Positions 418 through 23,181 of a stretch of 24,749 bases of DNA are shown piece by piece; position 1 is the first letter of the stretch, and each line of letters begins with the position of its first letter. The stretch comes from a virus. The DNA is taken from positions 1-24,749 of IMG/VR virus record IMGVR_UViG_3300008218_000048; one strand, given 5' to 3'. The notes beneath the pieces are model-generated. The model was not told the origin of the DNA and did not search any database. It worked only from the letters and a program-made list of their open reading frames with translations. A program made the position numbers and the translations under genes.

Positions 418-1614
418 TCATAATTGCAGTACGGAATCAAAGGATTTGACTCCAAATACTTTCTCGCAGGCATGGCAATCCCAACATCTATTTTTACAGG
501 TAGAGAGTATTTTACTTAGACTACGGCCCTTTTTTGTATGCCATATAGAGTTAAGTTCGTCTTCACTATGTTGCTGAGTATGGGATAAATTAGTCCACCC
601 TTGAATTGCCCACCTATCCACTAAATATGGAGATAATTTTTTATTATATATTTCCGTAAAGGAATCTGCGTATTCAAGTGAGCGCAACAACAACCCGCTT
701 TCTAAGTCTATCTTTTCTCCACCCCTCTCAAAACCTGACCAGCACATTCTGCCATTTGGATCGACACCTTGATTCTGCCCCAATCTACCGCTGAATTTAA
801 AAACATCCACATTATCGAAGAAGCTATCCACAATTTCTCTGGTAGCCATTGATATATTAACACCCAGTCTAGGCAGCTGTTCCGAATGAGGCCATCTCCA
901 GTGAGCGCAAGTCGTGGGGAAGGTTTGCCAGTAATTGGAATTTGTCTTGGAGAGGGGCGCCTGCCATATGTCATGCTCTTGTTTGAAGGGACAGCTTGGC
1001 ATACATGACTCAGACGCAAGAAGCGATGTTTCTATATTTAGATTCTTAGTTGCCGTGCGAATTTCAGTCAGTAGATCAATATCTCTGTTAAGGGAGCGAT
1101 CTAAAAGTATAGTGTTGTAGCCTAAGGCAGCGTAATCATATACTTCCTGCGTTGTTTTCACTAAATGGTTTACTGTATTCTTCCAATTCATTTCAGGGAA
1201 TTCTGCCTGCAAAGCCCCCGTTCTCATTAGATGGGCCGAACTAATAGTGCAAATTCTTAAACCTCTTTTATAATACTGTTTTATATAACTCAGCATTTGT
1301 TTTATGACATTAAGGTCAGAGGCTAGCTCCTTCCCCATATCCATAGAATTTAATGTCAGAGATATCTCTACACCAAATTCGTCTTGTATTTTAAAGAGAT
1401 TGTCTACTTGCTTGGGAGACGCAGTGACTCCCATAACTTCGCCGTATGTTTTTTGCTGGCCGTCGTGTTCGTAGACGAATTCTGCGCCGAAATATATATC
1501 GCGTACTTCGTCTTTGTATTCCTGCTTTGAATTCTTAAATAAATTATAGAATAGGTCGTCTTCTGTATAACTATCCCAATGAGGGATAGAGAACTTTTTA
1601 TTACAGTCTAACAC
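418..1614 (-). CDS. cysteine-rich TIM-barrel-like protein, possibly U32-peptidase-like with an Fe-S cluster
   Basis: This 398-residue protein is not a structural protein by appearance. It has alternating strand/helix segments typical of a TIM barrel (FGVEISLTLNS at 80-90, GYNTILLDRSLNRDIDLL near 165-182). Conserved-looking cysteines occur in ESCMPSCPF (C204, C208), then C236, C291 and a C-terminal cluster C373, C377, C380, C383. U32 proteins such as UbiU and UbiV are barrels that bind [4Fe-4S] through scattered cysteines, so a related fold and cofactor are plausible; membership is inference. C373-x3-C377-x2-C380 also fits the radical-SAM spacing, but it lies at the C-terminus, which argues against that class. 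The start is GTG, immediately after the TAA of the upstream gene. It is the last large gene of the fibre block. Confidence 0.65.
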   Translation of the reverse strand: MLDCNKKFSIPHWDSYTEDDLFYNLFKNSKQEYKDEVRDIYFGAEFVYEHDGQQKTYGEVMGVTASPKQVDNLFKIQDEFGVEISLTLNSMDMGKELASDLNVIKQMLSYIKQYYKRGLRICTISSAHLMRTGALQAEFPEMNWKNTVNHLVKTTQEVYDYAALGYNTILLDRSLNRDIDLLTEIRTATKNLNIETSLLASESCMPSCPFKQEHDIWQAPLSKTNSNYWQTFPTTCAHWRWPHSEQLPRLGVNISMATREIVDSFFDNVDVFKFSGRLGQNQGVDPNGRMCWSGFERGGEKIDLESGLLLRSLEYADSFTEIYNKKLSPYLVDRWAIQGWTNLSHTQQHSEDELNSIWHTKKGRSLSKILSTCKNRCWDCHACEKVFGVKSFDSVLQL

Positions 1615-14529: not shown

Positions 14530-14741
14530 GAGACTTTAGGCCCGTCAGCAAATGGCGGAAGATGACATCAACGATCACGATGGTGGCGCTCTGCGCCATC
14601 ATCGGCCTCGCAATGATGGTCATTATTGTCGAGTGGCTCGTCGGTTGCGGCGAGAAGGAATACTCAAGCGACGGCACTTACGACGTCATCGACTGCGTGT
14701 TCTTCGACAACAACCCAACACCTGAAGGGACATGGCGATGA
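14526..14741 (+). CDS. small single-span membrane protein
   Basis: The gene encodes 71 residues. A basic N-terminus (MRDFRPVSKWRK) precedes a hydrophobic segment at about residues 15-40 (TITMVALCAIIGLAMMVIIV, then EWLVG). A polar acidic tail follows (GEKEYSSDGTYDVIDCVFFDNN). LVGC at 38-41 resembles a lipobox, but the glutamate at 36 inside the hydrophobic run makes a lipoprotein signal unlikely. The charge pattern predicts the N-terminus inside and the tail in the periplasm. An early phage inner-membrane protein could alter host envelope functions; that is speculation. It is coupled by ATGA overlaps at both ends. Confidence 0.65.
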   Translation: MRDFRPVSKWRKMTSTITMVALCAIIGLAMMVIIVEWLVGCGEKEYSSDGTYDVIDCVFFDNNPTPEGTWR

Positions 14742-14965
14742 CAAAAGCCAAGGAGAACCCACGCATTCACGGCTCGACCCCAAACCACACGTACATTGGG
14801 GAGCCGTGGGCATGGAAGCGGATATTCGACGCCGCTGCGGAGAAGAACGAGACAAAAGCGTTAGGCAACATCATGATGATAACACGCTTGGGAGCCGAGA
14901 TGACGCTTGCAACACAGTCTCGTGTATTATACAACCTGTTGTCTTACAAGGGAGACACAACATGA
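14738..14965 (+). CDS. hypothetical 75-residue protein preceding the AAA+ gene
   Basis: Two ATGs lie at 14732 and 14738. I choose 14738 because AAGGGA (14725-14730) is then eight bases upstream and the ATGA overlap with the previous stop is restored. The product starts MTKAKENPRIHGSTPNHTYIGEPWAWK, then helices with AAAEKNETKALGNIMMITRLG and a VLYNLLSYKG end. No motif is recognised. It overlaps the ATPase start as ATGA. Confidence 0.6.
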   Translation: MTKAKENPRIHGSTPNHTYIGEPWAWKRIFDAAAEKNETKALGNIMMITRLGAEMTLATQSRVLYNLLSYKGDTT

Positions 14966-16971
14966 AGACAGACAACATCGAAAGGCCAGACGAAGGACGA
15001 GTGCCGCCCGAAGCCTGCCTAGAATACGCACAGGAACTTGACGGCATCCTGTCAATACCCTCCTTCACAACAAGACGTACTCTGTTGCGAAAGTGGGTCA
15101 GCCGTGATTGGCTGATAGTCTACGAAAGCCACTCAGATGGTGAGATAACCGTGAATGGCTTCAATTGCACACATCAGACGCTATCACACATAAACGATCC
15201 TTTACACAGGATCACTGACGCCTTTAAGAACTCACCGATGGTCGGTGTGAACCCGGACCAGATCTCACCGAAGCCAACAACTCATGGGTTGAGGGACAGC
15301 CTAGACTTGGAAACTCTCAGGGGCCTTGCTCTCGGGGCGATAACCGTCGACCACATCATCGAGGCAATCATAAACCCCGCCGCATACGGCATCGAAGTCG
15401 AACCGGACAGCAGGGCTAAGACGCGTTGGGTCTTTGGGCGTCCATCGGGGTGTACCGAGGAACGATTGCGAGTAGTAAGCGACGAACTCTTCGGGCAAGT
15501 TGGGTACAAGCCTAAAGATGCCAAACTCAAGCGAGCAGATTACACGCTTTCAACCATCATCAGCACCATAGACGCATTGGTCGACGATGAGTACGGAAAC
15601 CATCAAGAAATCGGCGAGACGTTAAAACCGCTATTCGATGATCCGGGGATGATTGACAATGTGATCGAAGCAATGGACACACGCGAAGGTGGCCCGGAAA
15701 AAGGCTTCCGCGAAAATGCAGACGCAACCTTACGCAAGGCTGTGGCAGATATTTTCGAAGTCGACGGCGACGATATTGTTAGCGCCCAACAAGCCACAAC
15801 CAATCACGACTTCAAGAAGATAGCCGCGCCGAAGGTGCATGAGCAGGCCGCAGTTGACGCAGTCACTAATGCCCTGTCATTGCAATCAATGGGGTCCATC
15901 GTTGAGGCACACAACAAACTCATCGACGAACTCACCACCGCAAAAGCCGCACAAGCTACGGTTCTTGCAATGCCCGCTGTGATCCCAGACATGACGGGAG
16001 AGGACGGCGAGCCATCTGGCACTCACAAGATGGTGAAGGCAAAGTCTGTGTTCAAAATCAGGGCTAAGGGCTTTGACATCGAAGTCCCGAAATTCACTTG
16101 GGACTCCACTCACAAGAATGTCCCTATCATCGACCCTGATTATGTCTTCGAGCCATCGTCTCTGCGCCGCATACTAAGGGCACTGTTGATGAACAAGACG
16201 TTCTACCTCCACGGTCACACAGGAACAGGCAAGACAACACTGGTCGAGCAGGTAGCTGCTCGTTTGCAGTGGCCACTTGTGCGTCTAAACCTCCACGGCG
16301 AGATCAGCCAGATGGATTTGCTTGGACGTGAAGTGTTGCGTAACGACAACGGTGTGACAATAAGTCAATACCTTGAGGGACCAGTGCCACAAGCAATGGT
16401 CGGTCCTAACATCCTGTTGTTGGATGAGATTGACTACATCAGGGCGAACGTCAGCTACGCACTACAACGTGGCCTTGAGGGCCACGGGCTAATGCTCACA
16501 GAGGACGCAGGGCGCATCATAAAGCCTCACCCGCTATTCAGGTGGGCAGCGACAGGAAACACGCAGATGAAGGGCGATGAATACGGAATGTACCGAGAGG
16601 CACGAATACAATCATCTGCGTTCATCAATCGTTGGGCCAACTGGGTCCACGTCGATTACATGAGCAAGCCACAACGCAGGAGGTTGTTGAAAGCCAAGGT
16701 GCCATCAATCTCAGACGATTTTCTGGAGAAACTGGTGCAGTACACCGCAGAACATCTGCGAGCCTTCACGAACGCTGAAATCATACAGCCTCTAAGCCCG
16801 AGAGACTACATCGAAGCCGCTGACGCACAGGTCGCGTTCTTGGCAATGGGATTGGATGAGACAGAGGCCACGAAGGAGGCTTTAATCACATCCATCATAG
16901 ACGCAGCAGTACCACAAGACGCTCAAGTGTTGCGTGGTCTGGTGCAAAATGTATTCAACGTGCAAGTCTAG
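14962..16971 (+). CDS. CobS/MoxR-like AAA+ ATPase
   Basis: This is a 669-residue protein starting at the ATG at 14962, which has AAGGGAG about seven bases upstream and an ATGA overlap. The first 380 residues are an unrecognised helical region, longer than in cobaltochelatase CobS. The AAA+ core follows: a lead-in VFEPSSLRRILRALLMNKTFYL, Walker A GHTGTGKTT (418-426), an LHGEISQMDLLG region, Walker B ILLLDEID (484-491) and sensor 1 RWAATGN (N533). A C-terminal lid follows. MoxR/CobS ATPases act as hexamers with a VWA partner, here encoded next. No CobN is present, so cobalamin synthesis is unlikely; remodelling of a protein target is the better inference. Confidence 0.85.
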   Translation: MKTDNIERPDEGRVPPEACLEYAQELDGILSIPSFTTRRTLLRKWVSRDWLIVYESHSDGEITVNGFNCTHQTLSHINDPLHRITDAFKNSPMVGVNPDQISPKPTTHGLRDSLDLETLRGLALGAITVDHIIEAIINPAAYGIEVEPDSRAKTRWVFGRPSGCTEERLRVVSDELFGQVGYKPKDAKLKRADYTLSTIISTIDALVDDEYGNHQEIGETLKPLFDDPGMIDNVIEAMDTREGGPEKGFRENADATLRKAVADIFEVDGDDIVSAQQATTNHDFKKIAAPKVHEQAAVDAVTNALSLQSMGSIVEAHNKLIDELTTAKAAQATVLAMPAVIPDMTGEDGEPSGTHKMVKAKSVFKIRAKGFDIEVPKFTWDSTHKNVPIIDPDYVFEPSSLRRILRALLMNKTFYLHGHTGTGKTTLVEQVAARLQWPLVRLNLHGEISQMDLLGREVLRNDNGVTISQYLEGPVPQAMVGPNILLLDEIDYIRANVSYALQRGLEGHGLMLTEDAGRIIKPHPLFRWAATGNTQMKGDEYGMYREARIQSSAFINRWANWVHVDYMSKPQRRRLLKAKVPSISDDFLEKLVQYTAEHLRAFTNAEIIQPLSPRDYIEAADAQVAFLAMGLDETEATKEALITSIIDAAVPQDAQVLRGLVQNVFNVQV

Positions 16972-16981
16972 GGAGACACAC

Positions 16982-18874
16982 ATGAAGAAAGTCAGATCAG
17001 AACACCTACAGGGCGAATTGAGCGTCACTGCGGGTGTGTTCAGTAAGAACGACGACCTTGAGGTCGTCTTTCAAGGAGACACAGCGCAAACAAACGGCAG
17101 CACGGTAATCCTGCCATCATTACCACACCACACATATGTCTCACGAAAAACTGTGGACATAGCACGGGGATACGTGAAGCACGAAGCCGGACACGTACAA
17201 CATTCCGACATGCCTGCAATCAGTCGAATGATTCGTGAAAGCGAGGCTATAGGCAACAAGATGTTGCCTAACATTGCGAACGCACTGGAAGATGTATGGT
17301 TGGAACGACGTGTCAAAGCCGAGTACGCCGGGGCAAACTCAAGTCTTATGGCTACGACTACAGCCGTAAATGAGGAATTCCTCAAGCAATACGAAAGTTG
17401 GACACCAGAAGAACGTACAGAAAAAATGGCCGACGAAAGTTTCGTTGGCGCAGTCGCTCTCACATGGGAAGGACGCAAGGGCTACGGCGAAGAAACGAAC
17501 ACCAAGTGTCTTGATCTATTGCCTGATAGCGTCAGGAACAAGTTAGCCCCTCGTATCAAAGCACTGAACGACTGCCGAAACTCTGAAGACGTGATTGCTT
17601 TGGCACGTATGATAGACAAGGACATCCGAGAGGATGTCGGGAAGAAAAAGCCCAATGACAAGCCCGGATTAGGCAAGCCCTGCGAAGAAGGCGAGGAAGG
17701 CGAAGGCAAAGGTAAGGGTAAGGGCGAAGCCAAAGACGACAGCGAAACCAAAGGCGAAGGTAAGGGCGACGAGCGTACTAAGGAGGGGGGAGAGAAAGAG
17801 GCAGAAGAAGAGGGAGGCGGTGACCAAGGGTATGTGCCTTTGGATACAAAGGACATGTACGACGGATCACTGGCGAAAATGGTAGCCGACGTGCTTAGAC
17901 ACGACAGTAAACCACAACCCGGCGAAGAATACTGGCGCCCGTTCTCAACTGAAGACGACAGGATTATCACTAGGCACAATGACCGCACCAAACGCAATGG
18001 CCAGAAGAGTGTCTACAAGGCAATCGTCAAGGGAATGGGATCTAAACTCAACGCCATGCAACGCAAGTTGGAAGCATCACTTGCTGCTCAACTGGATCGT
18101 GATTGGGAAACAGAACAGTTGTCGGGACGACTGGATAACAGACGTCTTGTCCCTGCGTACAACTGTACACCCACCGTCTACAAGACACGACTCCCAACGC
18201 CTGAAATTGACACGGCAGTAACACTACTTGTCGACCTGTCAGGATCTATGTGTGGCAACAAATTAAAGCTAGCGCGCGAAGTCTGCGTGTCATTGTTGGA
18301 ATGCCTTGACCGTCTTGGGACATCAACCGAGGTGATAGGCTTCAGAACAGGACGTGGGATGGTTCGTGGCGCTACTTACGATGACCGCTATGACAAGAAG
18401 TGGTCAAGAACAGGCGCACTGGATCACCACATTTACAAGTCATTCAACGAACGCCTGTCTGATGCCAAATGCACGTTCAGTGCGATGCTAAATGACGGCG
18501 GAGGCGCAAACTCCGATGGCGAGAGCCTTGATTTAGCCAGAGAGAGGCTAGTAACACAGGTAGAAGAACGGAAAATTATGATTGTCCTGTCTGACGGGTG
18601 GCCAACAGGTTGCGGTGGAACTTGCGATCCAAACCAACATCTTCGAAATGCTGTGGAGCGTTGCCGCAAAGACAAGATTGACTGCGTCGGCATAGGCATC
18701 ATGTCAGAAGCCGTAAAGGAATTCTATCCCGCGTTCACAGTGTGCGAGTCACTGGAAGATTTACCCAAGTCAGTCATACAGGAAGTTGGGCAACTGCTTG
18801 TCAGCGACAGGTATGTAGCAAGCAATGCCGATCTTAGGAAGCCGTCGGGTTATGCCCATATGGCGGCCTCCTAA
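16982..18874 (+). CDS. CobT-like VWA-domain protein with an N-terminal HExxH motif
   Basis: This 630-residue partner of the preceding ATPase starts at the ATG at 16982 after TAGGGAGA; its frame extends upstream without support. The N-terminal domain contains KHEAGHVQHSD (HEAGH at 67-71), which matches the zinc-metallopeptidase HExxH pattern, with acidic residues downstream in NALEDVWLERR. A long acidic/basic low-complexity linker follows (about 220-282). The C-terminal VWA domain has the MIDAS motif DLSGSM at 418-423 and later IMIVLSDGWPTG, which supplies the conserved aspartate. CobT-type proteins bind the MoxR/CobS ring and a substrate. Whether the HEAGH site is proteolytic or only structural is unknown. 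Confidence 0.85.
   Translation: MKKVRSEHLQGELSVTAGVFSKNDDLEVVFQGDTAQTNGSTVILPSLPHHTYVSRKTVDIARGYVKHEAGHVQHSDMPAISRMIRESEAIGNKMLPNIANALEDVWLERRVKAEYAGANSSLMATTTAVNEEFLKQYESWTPEERTEKMADESFVGAVALTWEGRKGYGEETNTKCLDLLPDSVRNKLAPRIKALNDCRNSEDVIALARMIDKDIREDVGKKKPNDKPGLGKPCEEGEEGEGKGKGKGEAKDDSETKGEGKGDERTKEGGEKEAEEEGGGDQGYVPLDTKDMYDGSLAKMVADVLRHDSKPQPGEEYWRPFSTEDDRIITRHNDRTKRNGQKSVYKAIVKGMGSKLNAMQRKLEASLAAQLDRDWETEQLSGRLDNRRLVPAYNCTPTVYKTRLPTPEIDTAVTLLVDLSGSMCGNKLKLAREVCVSLLECLDRLGTSTEVIGFRTGRGMVRGATYDDRYDKKWSRTGALDHHIYKSFNERLSDAKCTFSAMLNDGGGANSDGESLDLARERLVTQVEERKIMIVLSDGWPTGCGGTCDPNQHLRNAVERCRKDKIDCVGIGIMSEAVKEFYPAFTVCESLEDLPKSVIQEVGQLLVSDRYVASNADLRKPSGYAHMAAS
17641..17826 (+). repeat. low-complexity GEGKGKG-type repeat linker in the VWA gene
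   Basis: Short direct repeats of GGCGAAGGCAAAGG and GGTAAGGGC type encode a Gly/Glu/Lys-rich linker (EEGEEGEGKGKGKGEAK, later TKGEGKGDERTKEGGEKEAEEE). It separates the HExxH domain from the VWA domain. Such flexible charged linkers are normal in CobT proteins. The repeats could make this stretch length-variable between related phages. Confidence 0.75.
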
Positions 18875-22405: not shown

Positions 22406-22442
22406 GCCCTCGACCCACGCCAACGGGTCGGGGGCTTTTTTT
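22406..22442 (+). terminator. rho-independent terminator of the plus-strand operon
   Basis: GCCCTCGACCC (22406-22416) pairs with GGGTCGGGGGC (22425-22435), giving 11 bp with one T-G pair around an eight-base loop, followed by seven T (22436-22442). It lies between convergent genes. The opposite strand has no T run after the stem, so termination is one-way. Confidence 0.93.
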
Positions 22443-23181
22443 ATCTACGCGCAAGACATGTGTATAGATCACCGCAGTCAGCCGGTTGCTTCGTATTATC
22501 CTGAGTGCAAACCGTACTCCAATCCGCCAATGCACACGCATTAAAGCGTGTTTCATCCAACCCGATCTTCGCGCGCTTCAATCCTTCAATCCATTTACGA
22601 CTGGACGGGTATGAAAATTGTCGCCATTGATAGATGCTCACGGGGCGAAACCCTGACGACAACATTGCGTCTACGTAAAATTGCCATGTGTGTAGATAGC
22701 ATGTGTCGTTGAAGTATAGCCCCGGCATGTCGTCACTGACATTTACGGTAAACGCTACAGTATCCGTTACTTTTGACAGCCGCCTGAACATCCCCGGTAT
22801 ATCATTGGAATGATCGAACGACTCCACTGAAATCGCTACATCAAATCTACCTGATGGAAATTCCTTATCGAAATTCCCTATCTCAACGTCGAAGTTACAG
22901 ACTTCTTTTTGTTTGGGTGAAGACGTAATACCAACAATGCTCGCGCCGAGTTCCCTAGCTATCTGGTGACCGGGGCCACCCCATCCACTACCAATGTCCA
23001 GAACACGAGAGCCGCGCCGGATAACCGGATACAATAATCTTGTAGACGTCTGACAGGCAGCCTCTAAGGTCTCGTCTCCAAAAAAAAATCCGTGATGATA
23101 GTGACGCTCCGGGCCAAGGATTGTAGCCCAGACGTCCGGGTCGTCGTTGTAGAACTTGGTAATAAAATCGAAGTCTATCAC
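22441..23181 (-). CDS. class I SAM-dependent methyltransferase
   Basis: This is a 246-residue Rossmann-fold methyltransferase. Motif I is VLDIGSGWGGPG (60-71), the post-I segment is ASIVGITSSPKQ (80-91), and the motif II region is FDVAISVESFDH (113-124). The lead HYHHGFFFGDETLEAACQTS is like small-molecule or lipid-type enzymes (cyclopropane synthase, sarcosine or tocopherol methyltransferase families) rather than DNA methylases; no DPPY or PC motif is present. The substrate is unknown. The start is GTG, overlapping the previous stop (GTGA at 23178-23181). A T9 run on the coding strand (23080-23088) encodes the FFF. Confidence 0.85.
   Translation of the reverse strand: MIDFDFITKFYNDDPDVWATILGPERHYHHGFFFGDETLEAACQTSTRLLYPVIRRGSRVLDIGSGWGGPGHQIARELGASIVGITSSPKQKEVCNFDVEIGNFDKEFPSGRFDVAISVESFDHSNDIPGMFRRLSKVTDTVAFTVNVSDDMPGLYFNDTCYLHTWQFYVDAMLSSGFRPVSIYQWRQFSYPSSRKWIEGLKRAKIGLDETRFNACALADWSTVCTQDNTKQPADCGDLYTCLARR

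Follow-up and report, generated by a model that had tools for sequence, protein, structure and literature searches.

A phage protein with seven invariant cysteines represents, by predicted fold and descent, a separate subfamily of the U32 superfamily

Introduction

U32 enzymes carry out hydroxylations in ubiquinone, tRNA, and rRNA, and in the synthesis of ubiquinone and mo5U the hydroxylation is followed by O-methylation. Two members, UbiU and UbiV, bind [4Fe-4S] clusters and take part in O2-independent hydroxylation, and the four cysteines of U32 proteins form the motif CX6CX15CX3/4C or its UbiU form (PMC6747719). Two others, TrhP and RlhA, require prephenate for hydroxylation, and E162 is the essential Glu of TrhP (PMC6599085). 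No link between U32 proteins and phages or reductive dehalogenases was found in the papers searched.

Here, we examined a marine virus gene in positions 1 to 24,749 of the IMG/VR virus record IMGVR_UViG_3300008218_000048; this whole stretch of 24,749 nucleotides is referred to below as the window. The original prediction described the gene product as an enzyme-like, cysteine-rich TIM-barrel protein that was comparable to UbiU and UbiV, closed a tail-fibre operon, and could modify a fibre protein or a host metabolite. Our analysis partly supported this reading: the fold and the type of cofactor were supported, and equivalence with UbiU/UbiV and a fibre target were not established. The results assign a fold, a likely cofactor, and a reaction type that can be tested to a "hypothetical protein" of more than 120 sequenced cyanophage records and many uncultured phages, and they would define a U32 subfamily whose cluster site is different. 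They also suggest a common thread that joins viral flavin halogenases such as VirX1, the 2OG oxygenases encoded at phage fibre loci, and the unexplained genes located beside reductive dehalogenases.

Results

The gene occupies positions 418 to 1,614 on the minus strand, with a GTG start codon at 1,614 and a TGA stop codon at 418 to 420, and its product is 398 aa long; the coordinates, strand, and length had been predicted exactly. In a comparison with its closest distinct relative (L003, 83% identical), dN was 0.088 and dS was 0.66 (dN/dS of about 0.13), and about 80 relatives of the protein were present in IMG/VR. Because of this substitution pattern and the number of relatives, we consider the open reading frame to be a genuine conserved gene, as judged by sequence comparison.

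To characterize the cysteines, we used alignments of 20 and later 48 relatives, with mean column identity down to 37%. The protein has ten cysteines (C4, C122, C204, C208, C236, C291, C373, C377, C380, and C383). The eight that had been listed were placed correctly, but C4 and C122 had been missed, and the eight did not hold as the set that matters: seven cysteines (C204, C208, C236, C373, C377, C380, and C383) were invariant in the 48 diverse relatives, C122 was nearly invariant, and C4 and C291 were not conserved. The same seven cysteines were all present in the 11 cyanophage homologues examined, which are about 26% identical to the window protein; thus, the pattern is far above chance. A metal-type cysteine pattern had been proposed, with homologues lacking the cysteines as the result that would speak against it, and the persistence of the seven across the 48 relatives left the metal-site reading standing. 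Further invariant residues included W144, K145, T147 to N149, D172, R173, R177, E202, H214, R249, K273, and R277. As read from the alignment, this pattern fits an active site and not a scaffold.

An AlphaFold2 model of the window protein, built with the 48 relatives, had a pLDDT of 89.4 and a pTM of 0.90 and was predicted to contain a U32-type TIM barrel. The best solved structure in a Foldseek search was 5d88, the U32 protein Mk0906 (E 6.7e-7), and VIA-align against 5d88 gave a Z of 15.9 over 226 residues with an rmsd of 3.5; the next match, an unrelated barrel, had a Z of 12.1. The predicted U32-like barrel was therefore borne out, and a fold without a barrel, which would have spoken against it, was not obtained. 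Based on secondary structure and the VIA alignment to 5d88 (model residues 2 to 340), the barrel part spans approximately residues 1 to 295 (positions 730 to 1,614, minus strand). When the C-terminal 116 residues were modelled alone, the pLDDT was 74 and no match to a solved fold was found for the isolated part. Because the lone model was moderate and lacked a solved counterpart, we claim no fold for the C-terminal part.

Sequence searches of Pfam, NCBIfam, and the PDB with the window protein gave no direct match, and a direct profile comparison with U32 proteins (Escherichia coli UbiU, UbiV, TrhP, and RlhA plus deltaproteobacterial members) gave a P of 7e-4, which was suggestive only. A search of one phylum with the family profile found matches in 17 of 297 genomes, most with E values of 1e-10 to 1e-18, and reached the canonical U32 protein L155 at E 6.5e-4. 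The barrel cysteine trio and a C-terminal four-cysteine cluster were both present in 14 of the matched bacterial proteins, three of which have the spacing CX4CX2CX2C. The window protein has no direct match to PF01136; bacterial intermediates found with the family profile scored above its cut-off, and L140, L142, L149, L150, and L154 passed the Pfam Peptidase_U32 cut-off with E values of 1.2e-13 to 3.2e-5. Homology to U32 proteins is supported by this route, since the family profile retrieves intermediates that pass the Peptidase_U32 cut-off. The deltaproteobacterial U32-like proteins (L140 to L154) share the barrel trio and the C-terminal four cysteines with the window family and are intermediate between it and Pfam U32, but they are cellular, are about 350 to 420 aa long, and form a separate, well-supported clade (100/99 in a maximum-likelihood tree).

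A joint alignment indicated which U32 features were kept. The window protein shares the TIM barrel, the motif order, and a K-x-x-G-R motif with the U32 hydroxylases (UbiU, UbiV, TrhP, and RlhA) and with Mk0906: the FPEM motif aligned, DRSLNR aligned on SRELSL, and KFSGR (residues 273 to 277, positions 784 to 798, minus strand), in which K273 and R277 are invariant, aligned on the U32 motif KIEGR. Three cysteine positions also coincided with three of the four U32 ligands. Specifically, C204-x3-C208 (991 to 1,005, minus strand) aligned to C170/C177 of TrhP, and C236 (907 to 909, minus strand) aligned to C197 of TrhP. In contrast to the U32 hydroxylases, the window protein has CX3C-x27-C in the barrel in place of CX6CX15CX3/4C or the UbiU form, so the loop between the first two barrel cysteines is shorter (x3 versus x6) and the fourth ligand is missing. 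The residue aligned to E162 of TrhP is S197, and the window protein adds C373-x3-C377-x2-C380-x2-C383 (466 to 498, minus strand), which is not part of the canonical U32 motif and characterizes the subfamily. Equivalence with UbiU and UbiV was not upheld, as the ligand pattern and the key Glu differ. By modelled fold and by descent, we place the window family in the U32 superfamily; because it lacks the canonical four-cysteine motif and a counterpart of the essential Glu of TrhP, we treat it as a separate subfamily, distinct from the UbiU, UbiV, TrhP, and RlhA families. For the same reason, its reaction may differ from those of the U32 hydroxylases.

Relatives are known from cyanophages. The window protein matched both PHROG 1458 (E 5.9e-26 at residues 67 to 277, over the barrel) and PHROG 36869, which are annotated as unknown function. 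In INPHARED, 123 cyanophage records contain a homologue (about 26% identical) that is annotated as hypothetical, and notes in cyanophage records label it T4-GC 354, a cyanomyovirus cluster. The T4-GC_354/PHROG 1458 proteins of cyanomyoviruses have the same seven cysteines and the same fibre-module position as the window protein, but they carry an extra methyltransferase-like domain of about 200 aa, whereas the window protein ends right after the C-terminal cysteine motif. In the case of S-CAM4, the extra domain matched Methyltransf_24 above the cut-off (E 1.9e-7), and in the case of P-HM2 it fell just under the cut-off (E 1.9e-5). The homologue in Prochlorococcus phage P-SSM3 (L134, 6001-7239) has no annotated CDS; its frame stops prematurely within the methyltransferase-like part, giving 412 aa where relatives have about 521.

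In the window, the enzyme gene is preceded on the same strand by a phrog_1787 gene (1,615 to 2,010, 131 aa) and by a gene for a tail-fibre-type protein with a CBM5/12 and a Gly-rich part (2,020 to 2,841, 273 aa). The gene had been described as closing a tail-fibre operon; the fibre gene is indeed just upstream, but a DUF6127 gene (112 to 378, 88 aa) follows on the same strand. The nearest relative, the 59.7-kb L001, encodes a 98%-identical protein and has more same-strand genes after its DUF6127 gene. The window gene is therefore not the end of an operon, since same-strand genes follow it both here and on L001.

Among the 37 viral clusters left after collapse at 85% identity, which share ancestry so that neighbour counts are not independent trials, a fibre gene was nearby in 15, a phrog_1787 gene was within two genes in 15, a Trp-halogenase-family gene was within two genes in 10, and a 2OG-Fe(II) oxygenase was within eight genes in 10. 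Other clusters had carbamoyltransferase, GT9, sulfotransferase, or DUF6445 genes as neighbours, and in five clusters, from T4-like phages, the gene was part of the DNA-replication module, with a regA-like gene on one side and a polymerase gene on the other. In a reciprocal search with the halogenase, the U32-like gene was present at 17 of the 80 viral loci recovered, often directly abutting it. The best match of the neighbouring halogenase was VirX1 (E 7e-145). This enzyme of cyanophage Syn10 was the first halogenase known from a virus; iodide is its preferred halide, and its aromatic scope is broad (PMC8407142). In the records checked for the window clade, including the 59.7-kb near relative, no halogenase was found, and a PF13640 2OG oxygenase was found only in the more distant L017 record.

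Several related loci had arrangements of their own. About seven tandem 2OG-Fe(II)-oxygenase-like genes are located downstream, on the opposite strand, in L025, L026, and L033. In Synechococcus phage syn9 (L191, 7488-10593), tail-fibre assembly genes are directly followed by a tandem pair of tryptophan-halogenase genes and then by several 2OG-Fe(II) oxygenases. Several phages closely related to that of the window have a trypsin-like protease gene directly after the U32-like gene, as in L008 (4519-5364) and related loci.

Full-length close relatives of the window protein (about 40% identical) were also found in bacterial chromosomes, and they were rare: in three phyla, such a close relative occurred in 1 of 297, 6 of 301, and 2 of 294 genomes. 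The homologue of a deltaproteobacterium (L087) adjoins a pyruvate:ferredoxin-oxidoreductase-like gene, two homologues (L090 and L092) are from Planctomycetota, and that of a Dehalococcoidales genome (L089) is located between two genes that we take, by eye, to be cdsA-like and dxr-like; five more genomes from the phylum of L089 carry a homologue. The Chloroflexota homologues L175 to L180 matched the family profile with E values of 1e-139 to 1e-146. In-frame stops in three Chloroflexota matches were not counted as breaks, as the full-length open reading frames are 403 to 441 aa. These Dehalococcoidia-type proteins are full length and have the seven cysteines, as in the window family, but they are chromosomal and are found in rdhA/O-methyltransferase neighbourhoods. 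In L177, L179, and L180, the order is a reductive dehalogenase-like gene, a Methyltransf_2-type O-methyltransferase gene, and the U32-like gene; in a fourth genome of this type, a PF13486 reductive dehalogenase and a small membrane-protein-like open reading frame precede the U32-like gene. Pfam was run on L177 and L178, and the order in L179 and L180 was read by sequence similarity. No description of the dehalogenase-like/O-methyltransferase/U32-like gene order was found in the papers searched.

Because of the chromosomal homologues, we dropped the views that the family is restricted to fibre loci or to phages. In the maximum-likelihood tree, in which several branches are long, the cellular close relatives branched in two places among phage sequences, and this placement suggests that the gene may have moved from phages to cells. 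No relative of the window protein was found in plasmids. Three further candidates (L085, L088, and L091), from MAGs assigned to Thaumarchaeota, Pelagibacterales, and Chloroflexi, were not counted as cellular homologues; their neighbourhoods match IMG/VR phage contigs, and they are probably phage contigs binned into MAGs.

Discussion

The explanation that we favour, with moderate confidence, is that the window protein is an enzyme of a separate Fe-S subfamily of the U32 superfamily and performs an O2-independent hydroxylation of a virion or fibre component or of a metabolite attached to one. The predicted fold, the homology, the conservation of the cysteines, and the gene partners are results of the analysis. 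By analogy with U32 biochemistry, an Fe-S cofactor and O2-independent hydroxylation are most likely. We infer the number of clusters, the open iron site, and the target as follows. Three cysteines in the barrel and four in the C-terminal part suggest two clusters: the C-terminal CX3CX2CX2C would hold one [4Fe-4S] cluster, and C204, C208, and C236 would hold a second by three cysteines only, which would leave one iron open for substrate. The enzyme would then transfer oxygen, independently of O2, to an aromatic or heteroaromatic group, and in related phages an O-methyltransferase or a flavin halogenase would catalyse a consecutive step. A methyltransferase link was found twice, as the cyanomyovirus fusion and as the gene order in three Dehalococcoidia-type genomes, and it resembles hydroxylation followed by O-methylation. 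For the window phage, a virion component is favoured as the target because of the fibre-module position, and it may be a fibre protein. A universal role in fibre modification was weakened because five of the 37 clusters place the gene in the replication module.

A broader proposal, which we regard as speculative and rather doubtful, is that the family is a two-site U32 class with one open iron, that it has travelled mainly with phages and also occurs in organohalide-respiring bacteria, and that its O2-independent chemistry on halogenated or methoxylated aromatics would, in phages, tailor the receptor-binding part of the virion.

The replication-module copies keep an RNA or DNA target possible. 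In such a case, the enzyme would hydroxylate a tRNA, rRNA, or phage DNA base, and the methyltransferase fused to it in cyanophages would complete a methoxy group. Two characterized U32 families, TrhP and RlhA, do act on RNA (PMC6599085), and in the T4-like clusters the gene is flanked by regA-like and DNA polymerase genes. However, in more clusters the gene belongs to a fibre or tailoring-enzyme module, no tRNA was found in the window, and the partners are halogenases and sulfo-, glycosyl-, and carbamoyltransferases, not RNA enzymes. We therefore consider a nucleic acid substrate unlikely.

The open iron that a three-cysteine barrel site would leave could also serve another Fe-S reaction, for example a dehydratase or reductive step, whose substrates in phages and Dehalococcoidia alike would be halogenated or methoxylated aromatics. 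The halogenase genes near the phage copies and the reductive dehalogenase genes near the cellular ones are consistent with this idea, but, to our knowledge, the U32 members of known function are all linked to hydroxylation; we rate a reaction of this kind as quite unlikely. It is more improbable still that the protein descends from the U32 barrel but serves in the virion fibre as a structural or zinc-binding part, without catalysis. Its gene adjoins fibre genes and the canonical ligand motif and Glu have been lost, but the seven cysteines and K145, N149, D172, R173, R177, E202, H214, R249, K273, and R277 are invariant across very diverse relatives, and the methyltransferase fusions and the cellular relatives beside dehalogenase genes point to an enzyme. 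A radical-SAM enzyme, for which the CX3CX2C spacing at C373 to C380 and weak Fer4_12 matches in two relatives (E 0.013) might argue, was rejected on topology as very improbable, since the only CX3CX2C (residues 373 to 380) lies past the barrel and not after its first strand, and the fold and profile evidence point to U32, with no match to a radical-SAM family.

Two other parts of the window deserve mention. A gene pair on the plus strand (14,626 to 18,874) encodes a CobS-like AAA ATPase and a CobT-like VWA protein, and this pair also occurs in other marine phages. On the minus strand (22,441 to 23,181), near the opposite contig end from the U32-like gene, is a gene for a methyltransferase like cyclopropane fatty acid synthase (PF02353, E 5.7e-12).
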